Shown here: positions 1,747-44,833 of the stretch, piece by piece
Position numbering within the stretch: the first letter of the stretch is position 1
Layout: every line of letters starts with the position of its first letter
Assembly: GCA_003024175.1 (NCBI GenBank)
Contig: MDYQ01000214.1
Span: forward strand, 1 to 47,034
DNA: 47,034 nucleotides
Direction of reading: 5' to 3'
From: Planoprotostelium fungivorum
Lineage: Eukaryota > Evosea > Variosea > Cavosteliida > Cavosteliaceae
Program-made: the position numbers and the translations under genes
The notes under the pieces: generated by a model
Seen by the model: only the letters and a program-made list of their open reading frames with translations
Told to the model about the DNA's origin: nothing
Databases searched by the model: none

Positions 1747-4700
1747 TTATACGTCATTATCATAATGCATGTTTGCATCTGGGTACAATGATTGGTCCAC
1801 ATGATTCTGTGAACCATAGATAGAATCTTGGTAATGTGGTGCAGTAATAGATACAGTCTGTGTTGATCTCACAGGAACTAACACTGCATGGATGTGCTCA
1901 CGTGGCAGATTATTGTACATCTCTCTCATCTGCACATAAATGTCTTTGAATGAGGGTCGTCTCTCTGAGTCAAATTCCCAACAGTCACAGAGAACATCAA
2001 AGAGCTCTTCTGGACATCTACAACAATCAATCATGTGTCTCAAATTATGATGGTGTCACCTGAATGGCCTGTCAAGAGTACCTTTCTCTTCCACAACGTA
2101 GGTTGAGACTTGTGCATTTGAAGGAAGGTGGTAGTAAGGCACTCTGCCTAATGTGAAGATTTCCCTGGCATGTTGATAAAGTTTCTCAAAAAAACCCTCA
2201 CCATGTGACAACACCAAAGCTCCACACATCTGACTTGTATGTGCTGACATTGTACAAAATGGTCTCTGGTGCACACCATCTAACTGGCATCACCTTGTCT
2301 TTTGCCTCATACACATTGTTCTCCCTGCTCATACCAAAGTCTGAAATCTGAGTCTTTCAATATTCTTCCTCTTTTGTTCCTCACCTTTATGTGCCTCATT
2401 GAGTTGATGAGAATATTCCTTGCTGCCAGATCTCTATGTATGACTCCCCTTGATTGCAGATACATCATACCCTTCACAATGTCAAAGCACATCTCAATCA
2501 GATGATTGTCTGTCAAATCCTTCTGACTCTTCTTGAGATACCTATAGGTTTCAGCACAGTGTTGTTGCACACCACTCACTCATCAAGGGAACCTTTGTCA
2601 ACATATTCAAGTACCATCAAGAACTGGTTGTTATAATGGGTGACGCCCAACAGTCTCACTACATTGGGATGATTCAGTCTTCTCAGTAGGTGGATCTCCT
2701 CTCTCCATTTTGTTTCCATCTCAGGATTCAGATTCTGGCAAATGATCAGAAAAGAATCTGCTGCCAACTCTCACCTTGAGGCCCTTGAGGGCAACAGTGG
2801 TCTCATTCCACTCCCCTTTGTACACTTCACCAAAGTGGCCCTTGCCAATGATCTCTTGCACCTGCACTGTCAATCCACCTCCCTTCATATGCACTCACTG
2901 TCACATCATCTAATATCAGATCAGACAGATTGAGTCTCTGCATCTCTTCCTCTAGCATCATTTTGGATTTCTTGTGTAAGTGATGACGCCTGGCAAGTAC
3001 TAGCAAGAGTAGAAGAACCAGGAGGAAGAAGACACTGCAGATAACAATAGCAGCTATTGCACCCTGACTGATGGATTGAATACCCTTCTGAATTAGGATG
3101 CAATATGTGATTTGATCTACTGATGGTCACGTGATGTTTTAGTGTTGATCACCTTGAATACTAGACGTGTAATGGTTGGGACATTGTACTGAATTCTGTG
3201 TACCAGATATCACGGAATCAGATGACATGGAGATGTCATTCTCACCCAAAAACCTGATTTTTTCATCAACATATGTGTGTACATGATATGATGACTCACT
3301 CAGAATTGGATGTGGATAAGCTGGCAGATTGTAACATGATGCTACTACCATTGTTGGCATGGTTATCATTGAATACAGTTGTCTTCACATAAGGTTTACC
3401 TCCTTGTATGTACAGGGCACCTCCAGTGTCTGCAGTGTTGGAGCTGAACATTGAGGATGTTACATACAAATCTGTTGCTGTCTCTTGGCGGGTCAAGCTT
3501 GATGTTTTGATGAATATAGCTCCTCCACTATCCTCAGCATGATTGGAAGAGAAATTGCAGGTGTCTAGAACCACCTGCCCCCTTCCATCTTTGATGATAT
3601 TAGAGATGAATGTAGATTAGATTGTGACATCACCTGATACATAGACAGCTCCTCCACTGTCTGAGGCTGCGTTCCCATGGTAACTACAATTGGACATGTT
3701 GATTCCTTTTGTTCTGGCGCTCTTGGAGATGTACACAGCTGCTCCACTTGTTCCTTGATTCCTGAATAAAAGTAAAGAAAAGATCTTGCCAGTGTTCTCA
3801 CCCAGCAAAAGATCCATTTGATATCACAATGGTAGTGATGGAAGAACCATCAAAATATAGAGCAGCTCCATTGGACATGGCTGTGTTGTTGTGTGCCCTC
3901 AGATTCTGTGCAAAAAAGGAGAAGGAAGGAGAATTGACATAGATTGATCCTCCATAGATCTTTTTCATCTCAGATATCTTTCTGAAATTCTTCTCACCTG
4001 GTTTTCAACAAAGGTCTCATTGTAGATCTCCAAATCACCACTTCCTGTTACCTCCAGTGTTCCACCTTGTGATGCCACATTGCTTTTCCATTGATTGTTG
4101 AACAGTATCAAGTGTGAAGATGAGATGTACCCCCCAGCTCCATTGGGAGATGTGTTTCCAAAAAACAAAGAAGAAGAAATGTTTGTTGATCCCTATCTAC
4201 TTCAATTGATATTCAAATGAGAACATCTTACCTGTGTTGTAGATGACAGATGGAAGCAACCTCCAGATGTGGTCGCTGTATTATTTGCACAAGTCCATCT
4301 TTGGACAGACAAGAGAAGGTTCCCTGATACGTACAGTGACCCACCAGAGGCTCCAGCAGCATTTGAGTCACTCTTCCATCCCCCCACACTCATTCTCCTG
4401 CAGTGATTGACATACAAGGCACCTCCAGAGACAACTGCTACATTTCCAGTGGTAGAAAGATCTGTGATGCTTGTGTTGTAGATGTTGCCCAACCATATGG
4501 TACCTCCAGATAGTTCTGCCGTGTTGTTTGCGCTGTTGTAGGAAGTCACACTCAGGGTGAATACAGTGGATATGTAAGTAGTTCCACCACTGAGTCCTGC
4601 AGTGTTCGAGTCACTTGTCCAGTTGTTGATGTATACAGAAGCACAGTTCTCTGCGTATAGGACACCGCCGGACTGGCTGGCTGTGTTTCTCTTGTTTGTC

Positions 4701-7700
4701 CAGTTGATCAGAGATAGCAGATTGTATCCACTCATGTAAGCTCCTGCACCGTTGAAGATGGCATGGTTGTCTGTCATGAGGATGTCTGTCACACATCAGT
4801 GTCACATCAACGTACAATAGTCACCCAACATGGTCACCGTAACGTTGGATTGACCTTGAGTGTTGCGGAGGTACACAGCTCCTCCAATCGATCCACTGTT
4901 CCCAGAAAAGACACAATCTGAGATCTGGATGACATTGCAGTTGGTAGAGATGTAGATTGCTCCTCCACTAGACGCTGAGTGCAGATTCTCAAATCTCGAT
5001 TCCATGATGTCTGTGGGAAATGAACGGAGACCAACAGAATTTGGCTCACTGATGACAGATATTGGACCGGTGATCTGTATTCCACCACCACTGCTGTCAG
5101 CAATTTGATTCTTCATGATGACATCTCTCATGCTGAAGTTTCTGATGTTTCCTGTGTGGTAGATTCCAACACCTCCCACGCCCACGTTCCCATCAAATGT
5201 ACAATTCACCAACAACACTGAAGAGATCTGACGCGTGTCACAGATGACATGCCACGTGATACTCACGTTACCAGCGTTGAAGATAGCCGCACCTGACAGC
5301 CCTTTGTTTCCAATCATATCAACGTTGGTGAGAGCGAGTGAGCCGATAGAAGCCTGAGATGCAACTTGTATGCATCCACCACTGAAACCGCCATTGTTGT
5401 TAATGAACACGCCATCGCTGATGTTGTACGTTCCATCACGGCCTGTCAGGATGAAGATGCTCCCTGAGGAGTCAGATCATGGAGAATTCTCCCAGTCATC
5501 CCACCTCCCACAAAAGGCCCGTGGTTGTTTGCCATTCTGAAACGGCTCAAAGTGAAGGACTGCAGAGCAGAGTTGAAGTACATGGATGCCCCGAAATTAT
5601 CCGCAGTATTCTCTGAGATTTCCGCATCTGTCCTCCACGTCATTCTCGCTTGTACGCAGAGATGTTCACCTGTGATCGATATCCAACTGCCATCAGAGCC
5701 ACTGTCACTGTAGAGACATCCCCCACTGACACCAGAGTTCTTGGTGCAGGTGAATCCTTGAATATTCACTTGGGCTCCGTTCGTATAGATGGCACCCAGA
5801 TCTGAGGAACCCTCCATCAACGTCAAGTTGTAAAGCTGGATTGATTCTGACGTTCAATCAGTCAATCAGATGTTAAGCTTGGCTGAACTCACTGGCAGAG
5901 GTGATGCGAACAGCAGGACCCCCACTGAAGTTTACAAAAGTGTCATTGGTGGAGATCCAATTGACCCCAGTGGCCCCCACACCTGACGCGTCCGTGGTAG
6001 AGTCATACGCACGACAGGCCCAGAAGTAATTGTTCTCCGTCACCGCATTTCCCGAGTTGAGATTCATTGGATTTAAGCAGAGGATGAACTGATTGTCACT
6101 GATGGTGGCAGAGATGGACCCAGACAGTGAGATGAGAGATGAATCAGAGGCCATACCTGAGAGAATGAATCAAACGTTCATTGAGAGACTCACGGCTAAA
6201 GTAGCAGTTTTGTATGGTGACAAAACCGATGAGAGAGACGACCACGGAGGGTCCGGTTCCAGTGAATGTGGAGTGAGAGAGTTGGAAAGTGGTGAAGACA
6301 GAAGAGATGAAGAAGGGACCTCTACAAGCGGAAGGATAATATGTGGCGTAGTTACCATTCTTACCAAAGAACGTAGAGTTTTGGATGTCATAGAGTTGAA
6401 TGCCTTGATAGTACTGATGGAGTGAGTCGATGTGGGAACGGTGAACGCACCTGAGGGTTTCTCGTGACCAACATGCAAGAGTCAGTATTGATTAACTGTG
6501 CTCGTCAGTCTTTTGAATATCTTGATGCAATCTTTCATTGATCCTTTGTGTGGTTTCTTGTGAATCGATCGGTTGTTTATGGAATCACGATGAATAGGTG
6601 AAAGATCGATATATCACCTGCGAGCCTCGTACGCGGAAAAAGACAGAGTTGTAGATCAAGTAGCGTTTGAGAGTCTGCACGTTTGGCATGTCCACCTATT
6701 TGTCTCACTTTCGGTCAAAAAATAAATCTCTTACCGTGAGAGCGTAGCACTTGTCAAAAATCAGGTCACCCACCACCCCCGTGGTGTAGATGAAAGGTAC
6801 GACGGTGTCCTTGACTTTCCCTTGGGTCACATTACAACGAACCAGAGAGAGGGTCCGAACATCTCCTCTCATGAACAGGAATGGTTCGTACATGTCTTTA
6901 CCCCCCACCAATGCGATGTCATACATGTACAACGTATTGATACCACTGATGTCGAGCTGACAATCTACAACGGTAAGTGAGAACTTTGGCAGGAATCTCA
7001 CTCGTGAGGTTGGTCTGTCCCATGGTACTACCACGCAGTGTGACTGCCCCACTGGGAGATGAGAACAGGATGGCGGGGCCAAAAGCAGAGCAGTTGTAGA
7101 CGCCGGGTGGTAACTGGATGTCTAACGTTGAACCATTCATCTGACCCAGGAACCTCAAAGCTGCTACGGGCAATCGGCTCAAAGTGGTCTGATCTGCTCC
7201 CGTGTGATTACACCATCTCGTATAGACACTCACTCGATTGGAAGAAGTAGAAGTCGAAAGATACGATCTGCTGTTCTCCAATGACCAATGAAGCCAACCG
7301 TTGAGAGGATGTATTTGATCGACACGTGCAAGATAAAGTGTAATTGGCCAGCAGGTAATGATCACACGTGAACCCCTCTCCTACCAATTGGATAGTCTCT
7401 GTTGAATTCAACCCCTTCAATTCAGATGTGGATATCTGGATGTCTTCTTCCGTGTTGGCTGCGAAACATGAGGATGGGGTGAGAGTGAGGCGAGATGTGA
7501 GAGAAGGAACTCACCTTGAAGGATCTGGTTGCTGATCGACAGGCATTTTGTTGTATAGACGGCTGTTATCGTGGCGTTGTTGGTACTATTGGTATTGAGC
7601 GAAAAGAAGTTCCGATCGACTGTCTGATCGCAAATGATGTCCACAGATACAGAGATGATCCGATCTCCTCGGGTAGTGAAATGGGATACGTTGATTCCAA

Positions 7701-33356: not shown

Positions 33357-36300
33357 ATGCACCACCTTGCGGTCTTCCTCTTGTTGTCCCTCTGCCTTGG
33401 ACCCGTCTGCGCTGATGTCTATAGCGTTGCATCGCTCAACGACATCACCACAGGTGAAGATGACCCGACAATTAGACATGCCGTGACTGACCGCATCCAG
33501 CGTGGACCACTGCGACCAAGCAGGCTGATCCCAACATTGTCCTTCTCATCACCGCTCCTCTGACCTCTTCCACCCTCAAGAGCTACACTCTGGCTGGAAA
33601 CAAAACTCTGACGGCCACAGTGACCGCTAACTCTCAGATTACCCTGACAAATGTGTCCCTCACATTCAGCTCTGTCAGTTCTTCTGTTTCTGTCAGCAAC
33701 ATCACCTTCACCGCGAGAGGTTCTCAGACTACCGGAAATGTCCTCGTGTTGAACGTTCCTTCCATCAACATCAACAACTGTGCCTTCACTGACCTCTTTT
33801 TGAACGGTGGGCATCCTCGTCTGAATCATGTTCTGATCTGATCTTCATTTTAGCTGCCATCACCACCGCCACATCGACTCGCTTTTTGATCACCAACACG
33901 GTATTCACTGGATTAAACACCAATTATGGAGTTTATCTCAGCTCCCAGGGCGCATATGAGGCTCGCAACGTGAATTTCACCCAGAACTTCATGAAGTACT
34001 CCGCTTTCTACACCACCAACGGAGGAACTACCATCATCATCACCGACTCCACCTTTGTGGCCAACTCTGTGAACAGTGCTAACAATCAAGGAATCATCAA
34101 CAGAAAGGGCTACCAGTCCGCTTACTTTAGAGGTTGCACCTTCGCTCAGAACAACGGTGAGCCATCATCCATCGACATCAACATCTCATCTCACATCATC
34201 TCAGTTGCCCGTCTGGTCAGTGGAGCTTTCTCTTCGACTTTCACCATCCTGGACTCCAACTTCACCCAGAACATCGCCGTCTACGACATCATCAGCACTC
34301 AGACCGGTTCACCCTCCCCCATCACCTTCCAGAATACCAACTTCACCTCGAACAACGCACCCAACCTCTTCTACCTCCCGGACACCAAGAGTCAGCTGTC
34401 CATCAGCAACTCCCTCCTCTCCGATAATAACGTGGGAACTGTCTTCAGCGTCAACACCCTATCGGTCAACTTGGACAACCTCGATCACACCGGTGGCTAC
34501 GGTGCCGCTTTCATCAGCGCCGACCGCAGCTCTTCCACCGCCCCCGTCGGTGCCAGCCTCAGCGTGAAGAACTCTGTCATCCGCAGCTCGGGTAACAGCA
34601 TCATCGTCACAAAGTACTACGACAACGTCAACGTCAGCAATGTCGATTTCTCGGGCGCCACCATGGCCACCGGAAGATATCCTCTCATCGCCGTTTTCCC
34701 ATACTCCGTGTCCGTCACCGGCTCCACCTTCACCTCCATCGTGGCTCCATCGGTCGTCTACGTTACCGGCTCATACGTCCTCTCTTCCATCGTGGTGGAG
34801 GACAACACCTTCTCCCAGCTGCAGATCCAAGGCCAGATCTTGGGCTTGATCTCCACTGCCTCTCGCGTTTCGGTTGCTCGCAACCTCTTCGTCGACAGTC
34901 AGGGAGCTCCCCTCTACAGCACCGGTAACAACACGATCGTCAGTGACAACGTCGTTCAGAACGTCAACACCACCAACTACGCCCTCTTCTCTCTCTCCGG
35001 TGTCAGCCTCACCTTTGGCAACAACCGTTTGGCTTCTTTGAACTCGGCCTCCTGCGCCGTGCAGTTCAGGAGCGACGTCACAGCCTCTCTCGTGAAAATC
35101 GACAAGTCCACCGTGGGAAGTTACAGTGGATCCGTGGGTGTCTTCTGTGTGGAGACAGGCACTTCTCTCCTGCAGCTGTCCGACAGCTCCATCACTTCCT
35201 CCAATGGAGCCGCTCTGTCCGTCACCGCCTCTCAAGCCACCGTCGTCGTTGTCTTTGGCAACACCATCGAGGTGACACTTGATGAATTCTGATGAATGAC
35301 GAATGATAGGATAACACCGCCACCTCTGGATCTGCTCTGTACATCAGCCCTCAGACCACCGTCTCATCGGTGAGTCATTGGAGGCATCTCTTGGTGACAT
35401 CTGACAGACATCCATCTTTCGTAACGTCATCACAAACAACGCTGCCACCTCGAACGGAGGAGCCGTCGCCGTCTACGGAAAAGTCCAGAGCCTCACTCTG
35501 ACCGACAGCACGGTCAGCTACAATTCGGCAAACTCCACCGGTGGAGCCCTCTACTTGTCCACACAGGGAAGCGTACTCATCTCTTCCTCCAACCTGGAAC
35601 AGAACGTCGCCACCTACGGTGGTGCCATCACCATCTCAGGTGTCAGCCTCAAGGTGCGACATCATCACCACGTACGATGATGAGACTGACCATCTGCAGG
35701 TGTACAACAGTGAGATCAAGCAGAGCCTCGCATCGGGAGGATCTCTCCTGTACGTCACCTCTGCTTCATCTGCAGACGGTGCCGGAAATTCGATCGATGT
35801 CAAGGACATCACCACTGCTTCCGGCTCCCCCGTTTCCCTCTACGGAGATTTCTCTACCACCATCTCCTGCCCCAACGGTGACTCATACTCTCTCTAAATC
35901 TTCTAACCTGCTCAGGAAACCTCGTCGCCTACTCCGCCGGAACAAGCTGTGATGCGTACGGATACGTACCCCCCACCACCTCCAGCTCGAGCGTACAACC
36001 TACTTCCACCACTCCCCCACCTACCCCCGTGTACGGTTGCGGTGGTAACGCCCTTCCCAGTGGATACACCGCAGGCTCTACCACCCGATTCACCTTCGCC
36101 GCCGGCTACGCTCCCTCTCAGCCCAGCAGAAGCTACACCGTCCACGTACCCTCCGACTACGACTTTTCCGTCTCTACCCCCGTAGTCTTCTCCTTCCACG
36201 GCGCCACCCGTGATTCTGCCAACCAGGAAGACATCTCAGGTCTGTCTACCACCGGATTGAAGATCAACAACCGTCCCTTCATCGCCGTCTATCCTCAGGG

Positions 36301-38380
36301 TGTCGCCGGTACGAAGGGTACCACCGCTTGGTTGAGTGAGTCATCACGGTGGTGTGCGTGATCTAATCGTAACAGGTGCTCCCTACTCCAACTACAGCGT
36401 CGACGATGTCGGTTTCACTCTGGCCATCTTGGACGTCCTCGAGAAGGATCTGTGCGTTGATACGAACCGTGTGTACGCTACTGGTAAGTCCAACGGAGGA
36501 GGTTTCACCAACTACCTGGCCTGCACTCCCATCGCTGCCGCCAGAATCGCAGCTTTCTCCACTGTCAGTGCCGCCGTCTACACCGGTGAGTCTCACGTGG
36601 AGTGAAAGAAAGTACTGACGTGCGTAGACTACGCTTTTGGACCTGCCAACAGCTGCACCACGTACAGAGGTATTCCCATCATGGATTTCCACGGAACTGC
36701 GGACGATACCATCTACTACAACGGTGGTTTCTCTAATGGAGCCAATTACACTTCCTCCCCTGATTTTGTCTCTGGTTGGGCCGCTCGTGAGAACTGCGAC
36801 CTGAAGAACTCCACCCTGCAGACCATCGGAGGAGTGAGCCATTCACTCTCAATTTTGTATTATCTTCATCTCGTATTGACAAGATACAGGGTCTCGTCAA
36901 CCAGACCACTTGGTTGTCAGGTTGTAGAGTGGGTGCTCAGGTGGTGCACTTTAAGATCCAAGATATGGACCACGCATGGCCTAGGACTGTTCTGCCCAGC
37001 CAGTGCAATGGAATTGCTGGAAACAATGATTGTGATCCCACTGTCATCAACGCCAACGACTATATCTTACCCTTCTTCACCAAGTATTCCCTTCCTGCCG
37101 ACGTACCCACTGCTGCTTCAACCAGCTCCACCACTTCCTCCACTAGCTCGGTCATTCCGACCACAAGTTCTACAACTAGCTCCACTAGCTCTATCAGTTC
37201 TACTAGCTCCACTAGTTCGACCAGCTCCACTAGCTCCACCGAGTCTACCAGCTCCACTAGCTCCACCGAGTCTACCAGCTCCACTAGCTCGACAGAGTCT
37301 ACCAGCTCCACTAGCTCGACAGAGTCTACCAGCTCCACTAGCTCGACAGAGTCTACCAGCTCCACTAGCTCCACCGAGTCTACCAGCTCCACTAGTTCCA
37401 CTAGTTCGACCAGCTCGACAGAATCTACTAGCTCCACTGAGTCTACCAGCTCTACTGAGGCGACAACTAGCTCAACTACGAGCTCCGAGGCCCCCACAAC
37501 TAGTCTGACCACCAGCTCATCCACTAGCATAGTATCTCCCACCACAAGCTCAACTACAAGCTCCACAACCAGCTCTGTGGCCCCCACCACAAGCTCCACC
37601 AATAGCACTGCCTCTACGAGCTCTACCACCAAGGCCACCACCAGCTCTGTCCCCACCACCAGCTCCACCAAGGTCACCACCAGCTCTACCACTAAGGGCA
37701 CCACCAGTTCGACCTCCTCTCCCATTCCCACCACCGCGGCAGGCTCTTGCATCAGCGTGACCCAGACCCTCACTTCCAGCTGGGCCCTCTTTGGCGTGAC
37801 CTACTACCAGTACACCGTCACCCTCAAGAACACCGCTCAGATTCGCGTCAACCCCATCGCTCTGACCACACCTGCTATCGACTCCTCCAAGGTGACTCAG
37901 TATTGGAACATCGTCAAGGTATCTTCCACTGCCTGGTCCCTTCCCTCTTACACAATCGGAATCGACGCCGGAGAGAGCTTCACCTTCGGTTATATCGCCA
38001 CCGTGAAGGTTGGATATGCCTCTGCCAGCTCCAACCAATGCCAAGCTCCCGTGGTGGTGACACCCCCAGTCGTCTGTGGCTACCGAGTGGAGCAGACTCC
38101 CATCAGCAGCTGGTACATTGATAACCGTCTGGTGACTCAATACTCTGCCACCGTGTACAACGACAACAACTTGGCTGGAAAGCCCACCTTCACCGTCAGC
38201 GCTGCCGATAGCTCCAGCATCACCCTCATGTGGAGCATCACGAAGAAGGGAACCACTTCGACTGGCTCTGTCGCTTACGAGTTACCATTCTACGCCACGG
38301 TCAACGGCAGGGGCAGCTACACTTGGGGATACCAATCTTTCCAGAAGGTCGATTGGGTCATCAACAAGACCTGCAACTAA
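33357..38380 (+). CDS. Secreted modular enzyme: beta-helix, CE1 feruloyl-esterase-like domain, two CBM49-like modules
   Basis: Signal peptide (MHHLAVFLLLSLCLGPVCA), then a right-handed beta-helix of about 600 residues rich in N/T/S-V repeats (33620-35640; ends with STGGALYLST and GGAITISG). A Pro/Ser/Thr linker (VPPTTSSSSVQPTSTTPPP) leads to an alpha/beta hydrolase of the CE1 feruloyl esterase/PHB depolymerase type: VVFSFHGATRDSANQ (oxyanion), GKSNGGG with the nucleophile Ser at 36489-36491, MDFHGTADDTIYY (Asp, 36712-36714) and MDHAWP (His, 36971-36973). A long Ser/Thr mucin-like linker (37110-37730) is followed by two CBM49-like cellulose-binding domains (SVTQTLTSSWALFGVTYYQY; EQTPISSWYIDNRLVTQYS), ending at TAA 38380. 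A 40-nt intron at about 35880 joins beta-helix to esterase in frame, so this is one gene, not two. It probably releases ferulate or acetyl esters from plant cell wall. Confidence 0.85.
37226..37402 (+). repeat. 27-bp coding minisatellite (STSSTESTS) in the Ser/Thr linker
   Basis: GAGTCTACCAGCTCCACTAG recurs with a strict 27-nt period at 37241, 37268, 37295, 37322, 37349 and 37376, with synonymous changes (TCCACC versus TCGACA) between units. Encodes an O-glycosylation-prone linker. Confidence 0.92.
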
Positions 38381-38812: not shown

Positions 38813-41008
38813 ATGAAGGTCGTAGTTCTACTCTGTTTGCTCTCTCTGGTCTCGGCTCAGTTGAGAGGTGTCAACTATGGAATCCAAAGGTCTGACGGAA
38901 GTTGCACCAATTACGACGATGTGAGAAGAAAACAACATCGATCACATGTGCTCATCAACAGAAGGTGCTGAAAGATTTCAACGTCATCGCGACATTTGCC
39001 CAAGCTGTGAAGATCTATAATCTGGGTTATTGCAATGGTGCTCAGAATAGCTTACGCGCTGCCAACGCCACCGGGTTGAAAGTCTTCCTCGGAATGGAGG
39101 GTTACGACGTTTCGGCTTATAATAACGAAAAGATAGTCCTACAACAACTCTATCAACAATTCGGGTTCTCCAATGTCCTGGGTGGATCATCTCTTTCCAC
39201 CCATCACCCTTACGCCGTCAGGTATTTCCATCGGTTCGGAGGACTTGTACAGAAATTGTGGTTGTGCAGATCGCTTTGGAGCTCAGATCACTGAAGTCCA
39301 GAACATTCTTAAAGGATTAGGGTCCAACGCGATCGTACCCGTGACACACACGGACGTCTACTATATGCAGCCTCCCGCCATCACCAACGTGGCTGACATC
39401 ATCATGTTCAATGCCTTTTCCTTTTGGGAAGGTGCAGACATCAATAGCGCCGTTCAGACCTTCATCGATCACTACAATTCGGTGAGTCCAGATCAAAAGG
39501 ACTCAAATTGATCTCGTACAGGTGAAGAATCAATTTCCCGGAAAACCAGTGTGGGTGGGAGAGACGGGATGGCCCGTGAAGGGAGCAAGCCAGGCGAACG
39601 CTGTACCTTCGGTAGAGAACGCACGCCAGTATTTGAATGGAATTGTCTGCTGGGCGAATGCCAATGGAGTGCCCTATTTCTATTTCGAAGCATTCGACGA
39701 GTCTTGGAAGGCTTCGCAAGTTTCTGGAGACATTGAAACCTCCTTTGGGCTGTACAACGCCGACCGCTCCAGGAAATCCTTTTTCCAATTGAACTGTCCG
39801 GGTGCAACTCAACCGATCATTACTTCTTCGGTTCAGAATCCTCCTTCCACGACACAAAGCTCACCTTCATTCACCCTCTCTCTCTATTGGTCGTTTGATA
39901 GTCCATCGTCTACGGTACAAGACCTTAGGTATGCTCTTCTCTCTCTCATCATCTCATCTTTGCAGTGGTAACAACCATTACGGTACCGTGGTTGGATCCT
40001 CCGTAATGGTCCCTGGAAAAGTTAACGGTGAATCAGCCTTCCTTTTCTTGTCTAATTGTCTGCAGGGGCTGCCTCACTCACTCAAACTAATGGGCTCAAC
40101 ACGTATCTTGTCAACGGCGGACAAGACTTCTTCAGTACGTTCACTGTTCTTCTGTGGGTCAATATCCCTCAATCTCTCGATGTACGGATGAAACTGGTTT
40201 CCTCCAAGATGCAATGGGATGCTGACACCGGCTTCCAAATCGAGTTTTATCCCACGGAGAAATCAATTTCCTTCGTCGGCGCCGGAGGCTCCGTTGCTTA
40301 TTGGGGAGGGTGAGCTCCCCTCGCTTGAATCGTGTTCACATTTATTAGGTTACCTGTTGTCTTTGGAGAATGGTTCCACGTGGCAGTGGTCAATAACGCA
40401 GGAAATGTCGTTCTCTATCTCAATGGACAAGCTTATAACGCGCAAGGAGTGGCAGTACCAGTCAAAGCTCGAGAGCAGTTGTACATCGGTTCAGACAACA
40501 CTCCAGCCGATGGTGTGACCGGTTATTTGGACGAGTTGTACGTGTACAGTTCTCCCCTTTCTGCTGCCCAGGTGTCTTCCGTCTACAGCAGGGGAGTGTC
40601 TTCACCTGCAACAAGTTCGATCACCACTTCAAAGTCAACCGCGTCTTCTACCAGTCAGACAAGCTCAACAAGCTCGGCAAGCTCAACAAGTTCGACAAGC
40701 TCGACAAGCTCAACAGAATCTCCCTCGACCACCAAAAGTTCCTCGACTACAAGCAGCCAAGTGGTACCGACCGGTGACACCTGTGGCTGTGGAGCCAACT
40801 TGAGTTGCTGCAATGGTCAGTGCTACAGTGTGAACCAATACGTCTGTGCATCCGATCAGCACGATCAGATGATCTTGTGTCCCATGGGTGAGTGAAGCAC
40901 TCTTCGTTATATCTCACATCATCAGGTACTGGTGCGTGTAGTGGTGGATGCTACGACCCTAAGCTGTACAACTGTGGAGCAGGTGGCCTCTCACAGAGGT
41001 CCAACTGA
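38813..41008 (+). CDS. Secreted GH17 endo-1,3-beta-glucanase with LamG-like and Cys-rich modules
   Basis: Signal peptide (MKVVVLLCLLSLVSA) followed at once by LRGVNYGIQRSDGS, the usual GH17 start. The acid/base site is ISIGSEDLYR and the nucleophile site VWVGETGWPVKG (about 39550), with YFYFEAFDESWK further on. After the barrel comes a laminin-G/concanavalin-A-like fold (LSLYWSFDSPSSTVQDL, NNHYGTVVG, EWFHVAVVNNAGNVVLYLNG, TGYLDELYVYSSPLSAAQV), a Ser/Thr linker (TSSTSSASSTSS) and a Cys-rich tail (CGCGANLSCCNGQCY, YVCASDQH, LCPMG, CSGGCYDPKLYNC) resembling the putative Carb_bind domain of fungal secreted proteins. Stop TGA 41008. Acts outside the cell on beta-1,3-glucans of fungal or own walls. 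It follows the CE1 gene in the same orientation. Confidence 0.88.
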
Positions 41009-42932: not shown

Positions 42933-44833
42933 TCACGATTTACCATCATCCCCAAAATCGATGACTTCATCTTCCTCCTGGACGATGACAGTCCTTCCAT
43001 CCGTCTGCGGGTCGATTTCTCCCTTCCTCTCCAGCCAGGCTACGAATACGACATCAACCTTCGTTCCGTTGAGGTGGTTGTGCTGCGTCTCTCCCAACCT
43101 CATGGCGTCGTAGCCGTCTCCTCCGTCTCGGACGAAGCGTGTGGCGACGCAGGTGTAAGAGCGGCTGGGATCATAAGGCTCGCCGTTGATTCTGAAACGA
43201 TGGTAAGTTGATGGACGATTCGGTGACGACCATTATGTAGGTGATGATGAAGCTCAGATGCCTCGTGGATGAAGATGAATGTAAATTGTGGTGATCACCT
43301 CAGCCGTGTGATGCGTTGCCCCGGAGGTTTCGTGGGGTCGATTCTCATGGATATTCCAGATACCTGTGGGAAGCATCCGGCTTGGGCGGGCAAGTGTCTC
43401 ACACCCTGCTCCAACCCAGCCTTCAAATTACTGCCCGTAATGTGGAACGCTTCCAGCGTGTTTGGTAGGGGAAACTCTCTCTGGATGTCGTGGTATGTGA
43501 TCTTGTGCCAGGGCTCGTAGACGGAGTCACCACGTATGGATCCTCCCTGAATGACTGCGGTCTCCGTGCCGAATGATTCTCTCACGGCATCGGCCAGTAG
43601 ATCGCCCATGGAGGTTTCTCTGGACCTCACCATGTATGTCTTCGATTCCAGTAGGGTGCGTGTGGTGGCGCAGGTCTTTAGCTTCAGGGCGTCGAGCTGA
43701 GAGAGGTGACCTCTGATGACATCTCTGATGTAATGATCCGGAAGTGTGTTGCGATTCAGGATGGTGTTCCAAGAGAGGTGCACGTGGGCGGGCTTCTTTG
43801 GACTGATGAAGGTCAATGGTGATGGAGTGATGCAGATGTTGTGACTCACTCTGGTTTCGACAGGTGGAGGTCTAGCCGTCCCAGGTACTGTGCATTCTGC
43901 CCAGCTTTGTAGATTAACGTTTCGTTCTCAAAGTTGGCGAATGGAATGTGATCGTGACCTCCGATGATGAGATTGATTCCCTTCACTCTCCTGTTTTCGG
44001 TGAGCTCAAAAATAGAGTTGATCGCCACACCTGGCCAGAACTTCATCTTCGTGCATGGACTGGTGGGTTACGGCAATGATGGCATCGCAGCCTTGTGCTC
44101 TCAGTTCATCTACGATCTTCTGAGAAGTTTCGACCACGGGAGAAAAGTGGGTCTCTCCGGGGAAGGAAAGGTTAATCGTCTCTGCCGTACAAACTCCAAA
44201 GAGGCCGATCTTAAATCCATTCACCTTGTCCGATTAAGACAACGCATCATCTCTTACGGTAATCACCTCCTTGATCTCAGTGGAGATGCAACCACCAAAG
44301 AGTTCACCACCCTGACGATCAAATACATTGGAGCCAAACCATTTGAAATTCGACTCTTTGATTCTGTCTCTGGTTTCATTTGGACCGTAATCAAATTCGT
44401 GGTTACCGAGGACGACGTAGTCGACCTCCATCTTGTTGAAAATGTCTAATCACATCAGCTCACGGTCAGTGTCAGGTCTCTCACCGATAATGTGTCCTCC
44501 TTTGGTCAAGTTGCTGAGACTGGTGGCGACCATAAAGTCACCGTTGACCTATACGAAGTCATTCGAAGACAAGGCTGGAAGACGTACCGTTGTGATGTGA
44601 TGCCGGGCTCTTCTTCTCTGTTCCTTGATGAGAGTCGTTATCTCAGCGAGACCTCCCAGCCCGTCTACCGCCTCTAATTCGTAGTTGTCGTTGAACATGA
44701 TGACAGAGAAGACCTGAACAGGGTCAGATGATGTGGTAAGATTCGGACAGAGTACCGTAGGCTCCCCGGGGACTTCAGGAGGGAATTCAGGGTCATCCTT
44801 CTGCACTCTGCTCACGCTGTTGCCTGATCCCAT
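42933..44833 (-). CDS. 5'-nucleotidase-like metallophosphoesterase
   Basis: Two-domain UshA/CD73-type phosphoesterase that hydrolyses nucleotides or related phosphate esters. The metallophosphatase domain shows VFSVIMFNDNYELEA (metal site with Asn-Tyr where most relatives have His), VVLGNHEFDYG (metal and catalytic His), FGVCTAETINLS, IIAVTHQSMHED and LIIGGHDHIPFA. The C-terminal 5_nucleotid_C domain has MGDLLADAVRESFG, VIQGGSIRGD, FPLPNTLEAFHITG, RINGEPYDPSRSYTCVAT and GGDGYDAMR, ending at TGA 42933. Start Met 44833 yields MGSGNSVSR, a good N-myristoylation signal, so the enzyme is probably membrane-anchored in the cytosol, not secreted. The frame stays open upstream to 45130 with another Met (MCDERSAM), an alternative start. 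Confidence 0.88.

Follow-up and report, generated by a model that had tools for sequence, protein, structure and literature searches.

We analyzed a 47,034-nt stretch of the genome of the amoeba Planoprotostelium fungivorum (contig MDYQ01000214.1, positions 1 to 47,034; hereafter the window) and find that a gene at 33357-38380 on the forward strand is predicted to encode a secreted protein composed of an N-terminal beta-helix, a CE1-like esterase, a Ser/Thr-rich linker and two CBM49 modules. From the sequence we show a single open frame, a fusion present in three paralogs, an intact catalytic triad, and homology of the beta-helix to ectodomains that are followed by a transmembrane (TM)-like helix and a tyrosine-kinase-type domain. 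We consider it an evenly balanced proposition that the protein is a cellulose-tethered secreted esterase in which a beta-helix shared with receptors acts as the targeting module.

A single gene model joins the beta-helix, the esterase and the CBM49 pair

The spliced model confirms, at the level of a gene model, that one gene would encode a single, predicted secreted fusion protein. The gene runs from an ATG at 33357 to a TAA at 38378-38380 and comprises 11 exons and 10 introns, whose removal gives a single 1527-aa reading frame. All 10 introns (33454-33500, 33807-33853, 34157-34204, 35272-35309, 35370-35407, 35654-35699, 35878-35915, 36336-36375, 36586-36627 and 36834-36889, forward strand) are GT-AG and 38-56 nt long, with positions set by eye from the reading frames; our own spliced aligner reproduced the exons when given the 1527-aa protein, which is a test of consistency only. 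The modules follow one another as signal peptide (residues 1-19, MHHLAVFLLLSLCLGPVCA; 33357..33413, identified by eye in the spliced model), right-handed beta-helix (about residues 20-765, ~735 aa, exons 1-8; 33414..35953), CE1-like esterase (residues 793-1099; 36035..37093, split by three introns), Ser/Thr linker and two CBM49 modules. From the last part of the esterase through the linker to the second CBM49 module, the sequence lies in the uninterrupted last exon (36890-38380). A preliminary description of this DNA had read these modules in one frame, with a Ser-Asp-His triad in the esterase, a mucin-like linker and a pair of cellulose-binding modules. The spliced model and domain searches of its parts bear out this architecture: the triad is invariant in 9/9 aligned sequences, 170 of the 209 linker residues are Ser or Thr, and Pfam matches CBM49 at 1.5e-22 over two stretches.

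Using genome searches, we find that the order of beta-helix and then esterase recurs in two further genes, on the contigs C208 and C39, and the unit is therefore more than a chance juxtaposition. All nine introns of the C208 gene fall in the alignment columns and phases of introns in the window gene; of the 10 introns of the C39 gene, nine share a column with the window gene and one is displaced by two columns, with equal phases. The phase 1 junction intron at the boundary between the beta-helix and the linker-esterase part (35878..35915) occupies the same alignment column and phase in 3/3 fusion genes, where it lies after CPN and inside a G codon. In the beta-helix, C208 and C39 are 60% and 48% identical to the window gene, respectively; for the esterase the values are 80% and 76%. 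For beta-helix, junction and esterase, nonsynonymous divergence (dN) is below synonymous divergence (dS) in all three pairwise comparisons, with dS >1 in all but one and near saturation. The C208 protein extends only a little beyond the esterase. Its C39 counterpart (C39:188000-195500, reverse strand), judged by eye, terminates with a Ser/Thr stalk and then a hydrophobic tail resembling a glycosylphosphatidylinositol (GPI) signal, with no CBM49.

The beta-helix is related to receptor-kinase ectodomains

Sequence homology places the beta-helix of the fusion in a family of beta-helices that also form the ectodomains of receptor kinases in this genome. A search in which 60 of 126 candidates were scored gave, grouped by eye, at least 27 beta-helix loci in addition to the three fusions. 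We examined 21 of these 27 (C267, C427 and 19 others, the set left out being C441, C124:153491, C71, C321, C315 and C51), and in all 21 a kinase domain lies downstream on the same strand, as found by script for the 19 and from coordinates for C267 and C427. At C267, the beta-helix gene extends through a TM-like helix to a kinase (PF07714, 4.1e-37); a kinase piece joined by hand gives a PK_Tyr_Ser-Thr match at 2.5e-52, and all 60 PDB matches listed for it, of 702, are named tyrosine kinases. With the C267 kinase as tblastn query, a kinase match at 1e-3 or better was obtained in 19 of the other 20 loci, and the C139 kinase scored 0.003 by tblastn and 5.7e-29 with the PF07714 profile. Eight other genome loci (L001-L003 and L005-L009, of which L005 covers the front of C427) gave no tblastn kinase match at 1e-3. 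The loop HRDLA[AVT]RN (HRDLAxRN), which we take to be typical of tyrosine kinases, occurs in 18 of the 21 loci and was not seen in C134, C124:148441 or C115, with one reading frame considered for each. Lastly, a TM-like 19-mer separates the beta-helix match from the kinase in 19/19 scanned loci (mean hydropathy 2.63-3.52; C427 lay outside the scan); among 900-nt controls, a hydropathy of 2.63 was reached in 0/84 from other loci and 2/70 on the opposite strand.

Two of the receptor loci, C267 (250/732 identical) and C427 (242/704), are the only ones that match nearly the whole beta-helix, with models that are rough mid-helix. Together with the three fusions they have 62 invariant residues within positions 20-339. 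The block at 180-219 is the best conserved between the window gene and both receptors (55% and 57%), followed by 620-659 in C267 (54%) and 20-59 in C427 (45%). This block contains the motif NQGIINRK (residues 212-219; 34084..34107, on an exon map anchored at residue 206 = 34066-34068), which reads NQG(I/V)INRK in 5/5 sequences, the three fusions and the receptors C267 and C427. The window protein itself has no kinase Pfam match in its three parts, and an esterase follows its beta-helix; judged by homology, it has only the ectodomain in common with receptor tyrosine kinases.

A probable receptor gene is also present in the window at 1750-6998 (reverse strand), with beta-helix-like repeats (Chlam_PMP, 3.6e-4), a TM-like stretch and a kinase carrying IHRDLAARN. 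Its ectodomain gave no match to the fusion beta-helix among the candidates scored.

The esterase domain and its relatives

The best PDB match of the esterase is 9j07, a structure named "feruloyl esterase" (E 3.2e-53, query residues 21-329 of 338; 40% identical in the alignment), one of four distinct PDB sequences matched at E<=0.1. The class label comes from homology, with 9j07 presumed to be CE1-type. Pfam gave sub-threshold matches only (PF00326, Peptidase_S9, 20.6 bits vs a cut-off of 22.6; AXE1, 11.4 vs 21). Alignment of nine esterases, from eight loci found in this genome plus 9j07, places the predicted nucleophile Ser931 in GKSNG (G-x-S-x-G; 36489..36491) and assigns Asp988 in HGTADD (36702..36704) and His1059 in MDHAWP (36971..36973) as the other members of the triad. 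For fungal CE1 enzymes, a G-x-S-x-G nucleophile motif with a Ser/Asp/His triad is described, and the members comprise both acetyl xylan esterases and feruloyl esterases (PMC7332973). Because CE1 spans these two activities, the specificity of the esterase cannot be read from its sequence.

We scanned bacterial and archaeal genomes and obtained 365 relatives out of 421 pattern matches. The best 80 of the 365 were kept, from genera that we take to be Actinomycetota, and no beta-helix or CBM49 was found beside these 80 at 1e-3 in flanks of up to 4 kb. A tree of 76 rows includes 67 of the 80, and all 67 of these bacterial rows are labelled Actinomycetota. All but one of the eight amoeba esterases group together (100/99), and a smaller group (97/89) unites the three fusion esterases with an esterase at C267. 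The eighth, at C281, groups with 9j07 on long branches, a pairing that the program warns may be false; this more distant esterase (C281:230000-233800) has a Cys-containing stretch and a linker upstream. The C267 esterase, a member of the fusion clade, lies head-to-head with the beta-helix receptor-kinase gene of that locus (C267:6500-14500), with ~0.4 kb between the modelled ends. We looked for an in-frame start codon directly upstream of the C267 esterase and found none.

Linker and CBM49 pair

The mucin-like linker of the spliced model covers residues 1105-1313 (37109..37735) and contains a 27/54-nt tandem repeat at 37175-37416. In the CBM49 match that follows, the protein scores 80.1 bits vs a cut-off of 23.4. 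The first module (37751..37999), found by both six-frame search and Pfam, has three conserved Trp; the second (38072..38377), the other Pfam stretch above threshold, has two Trp and a Tyr in place of the third. A PDB search with the pair returned a single chance match (E 0.27). In a six-frame search of the genome, CBM49 was matched at two loci only, the window gene and C81. Since this search missed the second CBM49 of the window gene itself, further weak copies may exist. At C81 (C81:6500-13500), one frame carries GH16 and X8 and an overlapping frame carries X8 and two CBM49 modules, with a Ser/Thr linker; these frames likely form one gene.

Proposed function and alternative explanations

We propose that the gene product acts as one protein, a secreted multidomain esterase, secretion being predicted. 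Its CE1-type alpha/beta-hydrolase would cleave esterified side groups of a polysaccharide or glycopolymer in a wall. Beyond the Ser/Thr linker, the two CBM49 modules would anchor the enzyme to cellulose, and the N-terminal beta-helix would recognise a further wall ligand and so place the esterase there. The ester and the bound ligand are both putative, and the wall would be the amoeba's own cellulose/beta-1,3-glucan wall or that of prey, rather than plant arabinoxylan. The domain may have been transferred from receptor to enzyme. A bolder extension, which we put forward tentatively and regard as somewhat doubtful, is that the receptor tyrosine kinases and the cellulose-anchored esterase share one ligand-recognising module, carrying the NGGTT...NQGxINRKxY block, such that the amoeba senses and edits the same wall polymer. 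If this is true, the free (C208), GPI-like (C39) and CBM49 fusions would give the module three locations, namely the medium, the cell and cellulose, respectively.

Several results weigh against the proposed function. No Pfam beta-helix model matched the window protein, and a genome search with PF13229 did not pick it up. Its C208 paralog does match PF13229 (1.6e-13, 51 bits vs a cut-off of 25.9, six stretches); the C39 beta-helix is without a PF13229 match in the Pfam search, and the C267 piece matches Chlam_PMP at 2.8e-7 and Beta_helix sub-threshold at 0.0045. Single-sequence AlphaFold2 models of 34207-35271 and 35408-35653 have a mean predicted local distance difference test score of only 42.0 and 37.6, and Foldseek with the low-confidence 34207-35271 model found nothing at E<=0.001 (best 0.09). 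The Foldseek list, headed by phage tailspikes and with polygalacturonase, alginate epimerase/lyase and pectin lyase among many unrelated chains, was not used, its E-values being non-significant. A profile built from the three fusion beta-helices gave no PDB match at E<=1, and in a Fourier analysis of hydropathy periodicity the observed maximum was reached by 160, 494 and 455 of 500 shuffles for the window gene, C208 and C39. A turn-like motif occurs 23, 25 and 26 times in the three, vs largest shuffled counts of 18, 19 and 20 (300 shuffles), with a pattern picked post hoc to replace an earlier one; it lends the fold weak support. Because none of structure prediction, Foldseek, the PDB profile and periodicity confirmed the fold, its prediction rests on the C208 Pfam match, the C267 Chlam_PMP and Beta_helix matches and homology.

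The beta-helix could also be a spacer or catalytic, its ligand binding being putative. The 25 receptor loci other than C267 and C427 match only query positions 508-737 of 753, which are generic beta-helix repeats. Because most loci match in this way, a common ligand for all of the receptors is not implied; for the 25, the similarity speaks for family membership. Finally, the CBM49 pair is present in only one of the three fusions, the window copy.

A possible alternative, which overlaps our proposal and goes further in naming the wall, is that the enzyme remodels the cellulose-containing cyst, spore or stalk wall of the amoeba itself, held there in the manner of the Luke lectins of Acanthamoeba. 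We think this is less likely to be right than wrong. The tandem CBM49 modules carry the Trp pattern reported for Luke (PMC6541295), and the GPI-like tail of the C39 paralog suggests use at the cell surface. In addition, enzymes of beta-1,3-glucan type are encoded nearby and at the C81 CBM49 locus. Immediately downstream in the window (38813-40892, forward strand) are frames with GH17 (2.2e-15) and a LamG-type domain (2e-14), followed by a Ser/Thr linker and a Cys-rich tail; this GH17 and LamG pair, together with GH16 and X8 on C81, favours a beta-1,3-glucan/cellulose wall, whether own or prey, short of proof. On the other hand, CBM49 was found at just two loci, both with enzymes, in a search known to miss copies, whereas Dictyostelium is reported to have dozens of CBM49 proteins (PMC6541295).

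We view as unlikely the explanation offered in the preliminary description, in which the protein is a plant-wall feruloyl esterase whose beta-helix binds pectin or xylan while ferulate is removed and the CBM49 modules dock on plant cellulose. It is consistent with the name of the nearest solved relative (9j07), with the intact triad and with CBM49 being a cellulose-binding family (PMC6541295). However, profiles of GH10, GH11 and GH9 gave no match in the genome at E<=0.001, in a search that exon-split genes could escape and whose controls were positive in 4/14, 1/14 and 2/14 genomes, respectively; with these families unmatched, the enzymes that commonly accompany a feruloyl esterase are not apparent. 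A search for AA9 was also without a match in the genome, as was its control. The neighbours, GH17/LamG downstream and GH16/X8 at C81, point elsewhere, and acetyl xylan esterases are likewise placed in CE1 (PMC7332973). Because the amoebozoan tandem-CBM49 proteins described in PMC6541295 are cyst-wall lectins, the wall of the amoeba itself is no worse a candidate target. The preliminary interpretation is partly supported: its architecture holds, and plant-wall loosening is a putative function. Because the beta-helix belongs to a receptor-kinase ectodomain family, a role in recognition is more probable than one specific to pectin or xylan.

The beta-helix could itself be an enzyme, either a lyase or a hydrolase of polysaccharides, in which case the protein would be bifunctional; numerous beta-helix proteins have activity on such substrates. 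In favour of this, N217, R218 and K219 do not vary among the five sequences compared; against it, the same three occur in C267 and C427, two receptor kinases for which a catalytic beta-helix is less expected, and neither the window copy nor C208 has a lyase, GH28 or CE8 Pfam match. We consider a catalytic beta-helix very unlikely. That the fusion reflects two adjacent genes or an artefact of assembly or splicing is hardly credible and we reject it: the model is sequence-based and its frame would stop inside the intron at 35878-35915 (open reading frame 35502-35897) if this intron were retained, such that its splicing, which keeps the frame, matters to the fusion, but module order and junction intron are common to three paralogs and one unbroken exon holds the esterase end, the linker and the CBM49 pair.

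Elsewhere in the window, 43298-43927 (reverse strand) encodes a 5'-nucleotidase C-terminal domain (2.1e-22).

Comparison with known systems

In the open-access literature, judged by titles and the openings of abstracts, we recognised no such fusion, no beta-helix receptor tyrosine kinase from an amoeba and no paper on the structure 9j07. Nonetheless, parts of the proposed protein resemble known systems. The esterase domain is like 9j07 in full-length homology, in its G-x-S-x-G motif and in its Ser/Asp/His residues; 9j07 (326 aa) aligns to the esterase alone, and the beta-helix and CBM49 modules are extras of the amoeba protein. As described in PMC6541295, the Luke lectins of Acanthamoeba are like the fusion in having a signal peptide and tandem CBM49 modules with three and then two Trp, and unlike it in consisting of CBM49s and spacers, with no enzyme or beta-helix. 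For the beta-helix, a precedent comes from gut-fungal class C G-protein-coupled receptors, for which PMC5168858 describes a pectin-lyase-fold beta-helix as a putative carbohydrate-binding ectodomain. These differ in being seven-transmembrane receptors. Among amoebae, Acanthamoeba is reported to have seven tyrosine kinases with predicted transmembrane domains (PMC4053784).

The fusion would offer a handle on the ligands of receptors. We know of no ligand of any amoebozoan receptor tyrosine kinase, and the substrate of the esterase together with the surface bound by CBM49 would narrow what the receptor beta-helix may recognise. More broadly, the three fusions suggest domain traffic between receptor and wall-enzyme genes inside one genome, with three C-terminal endings (none, GPI-like and CBM49), and hint that one recognition module may serve both the sensing and the targeting of wall material. 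Parallels exist within the same genome as well. Nineteen further receptor loci match just part of the fusion beta-helix, and the C267 and C427 receptor kinases carry a beta-helix of the same family, likewise N-terminal and with the NQG(I/V)INRK block; in the fusion, the esterase takes the place of their TM helix and kinase.

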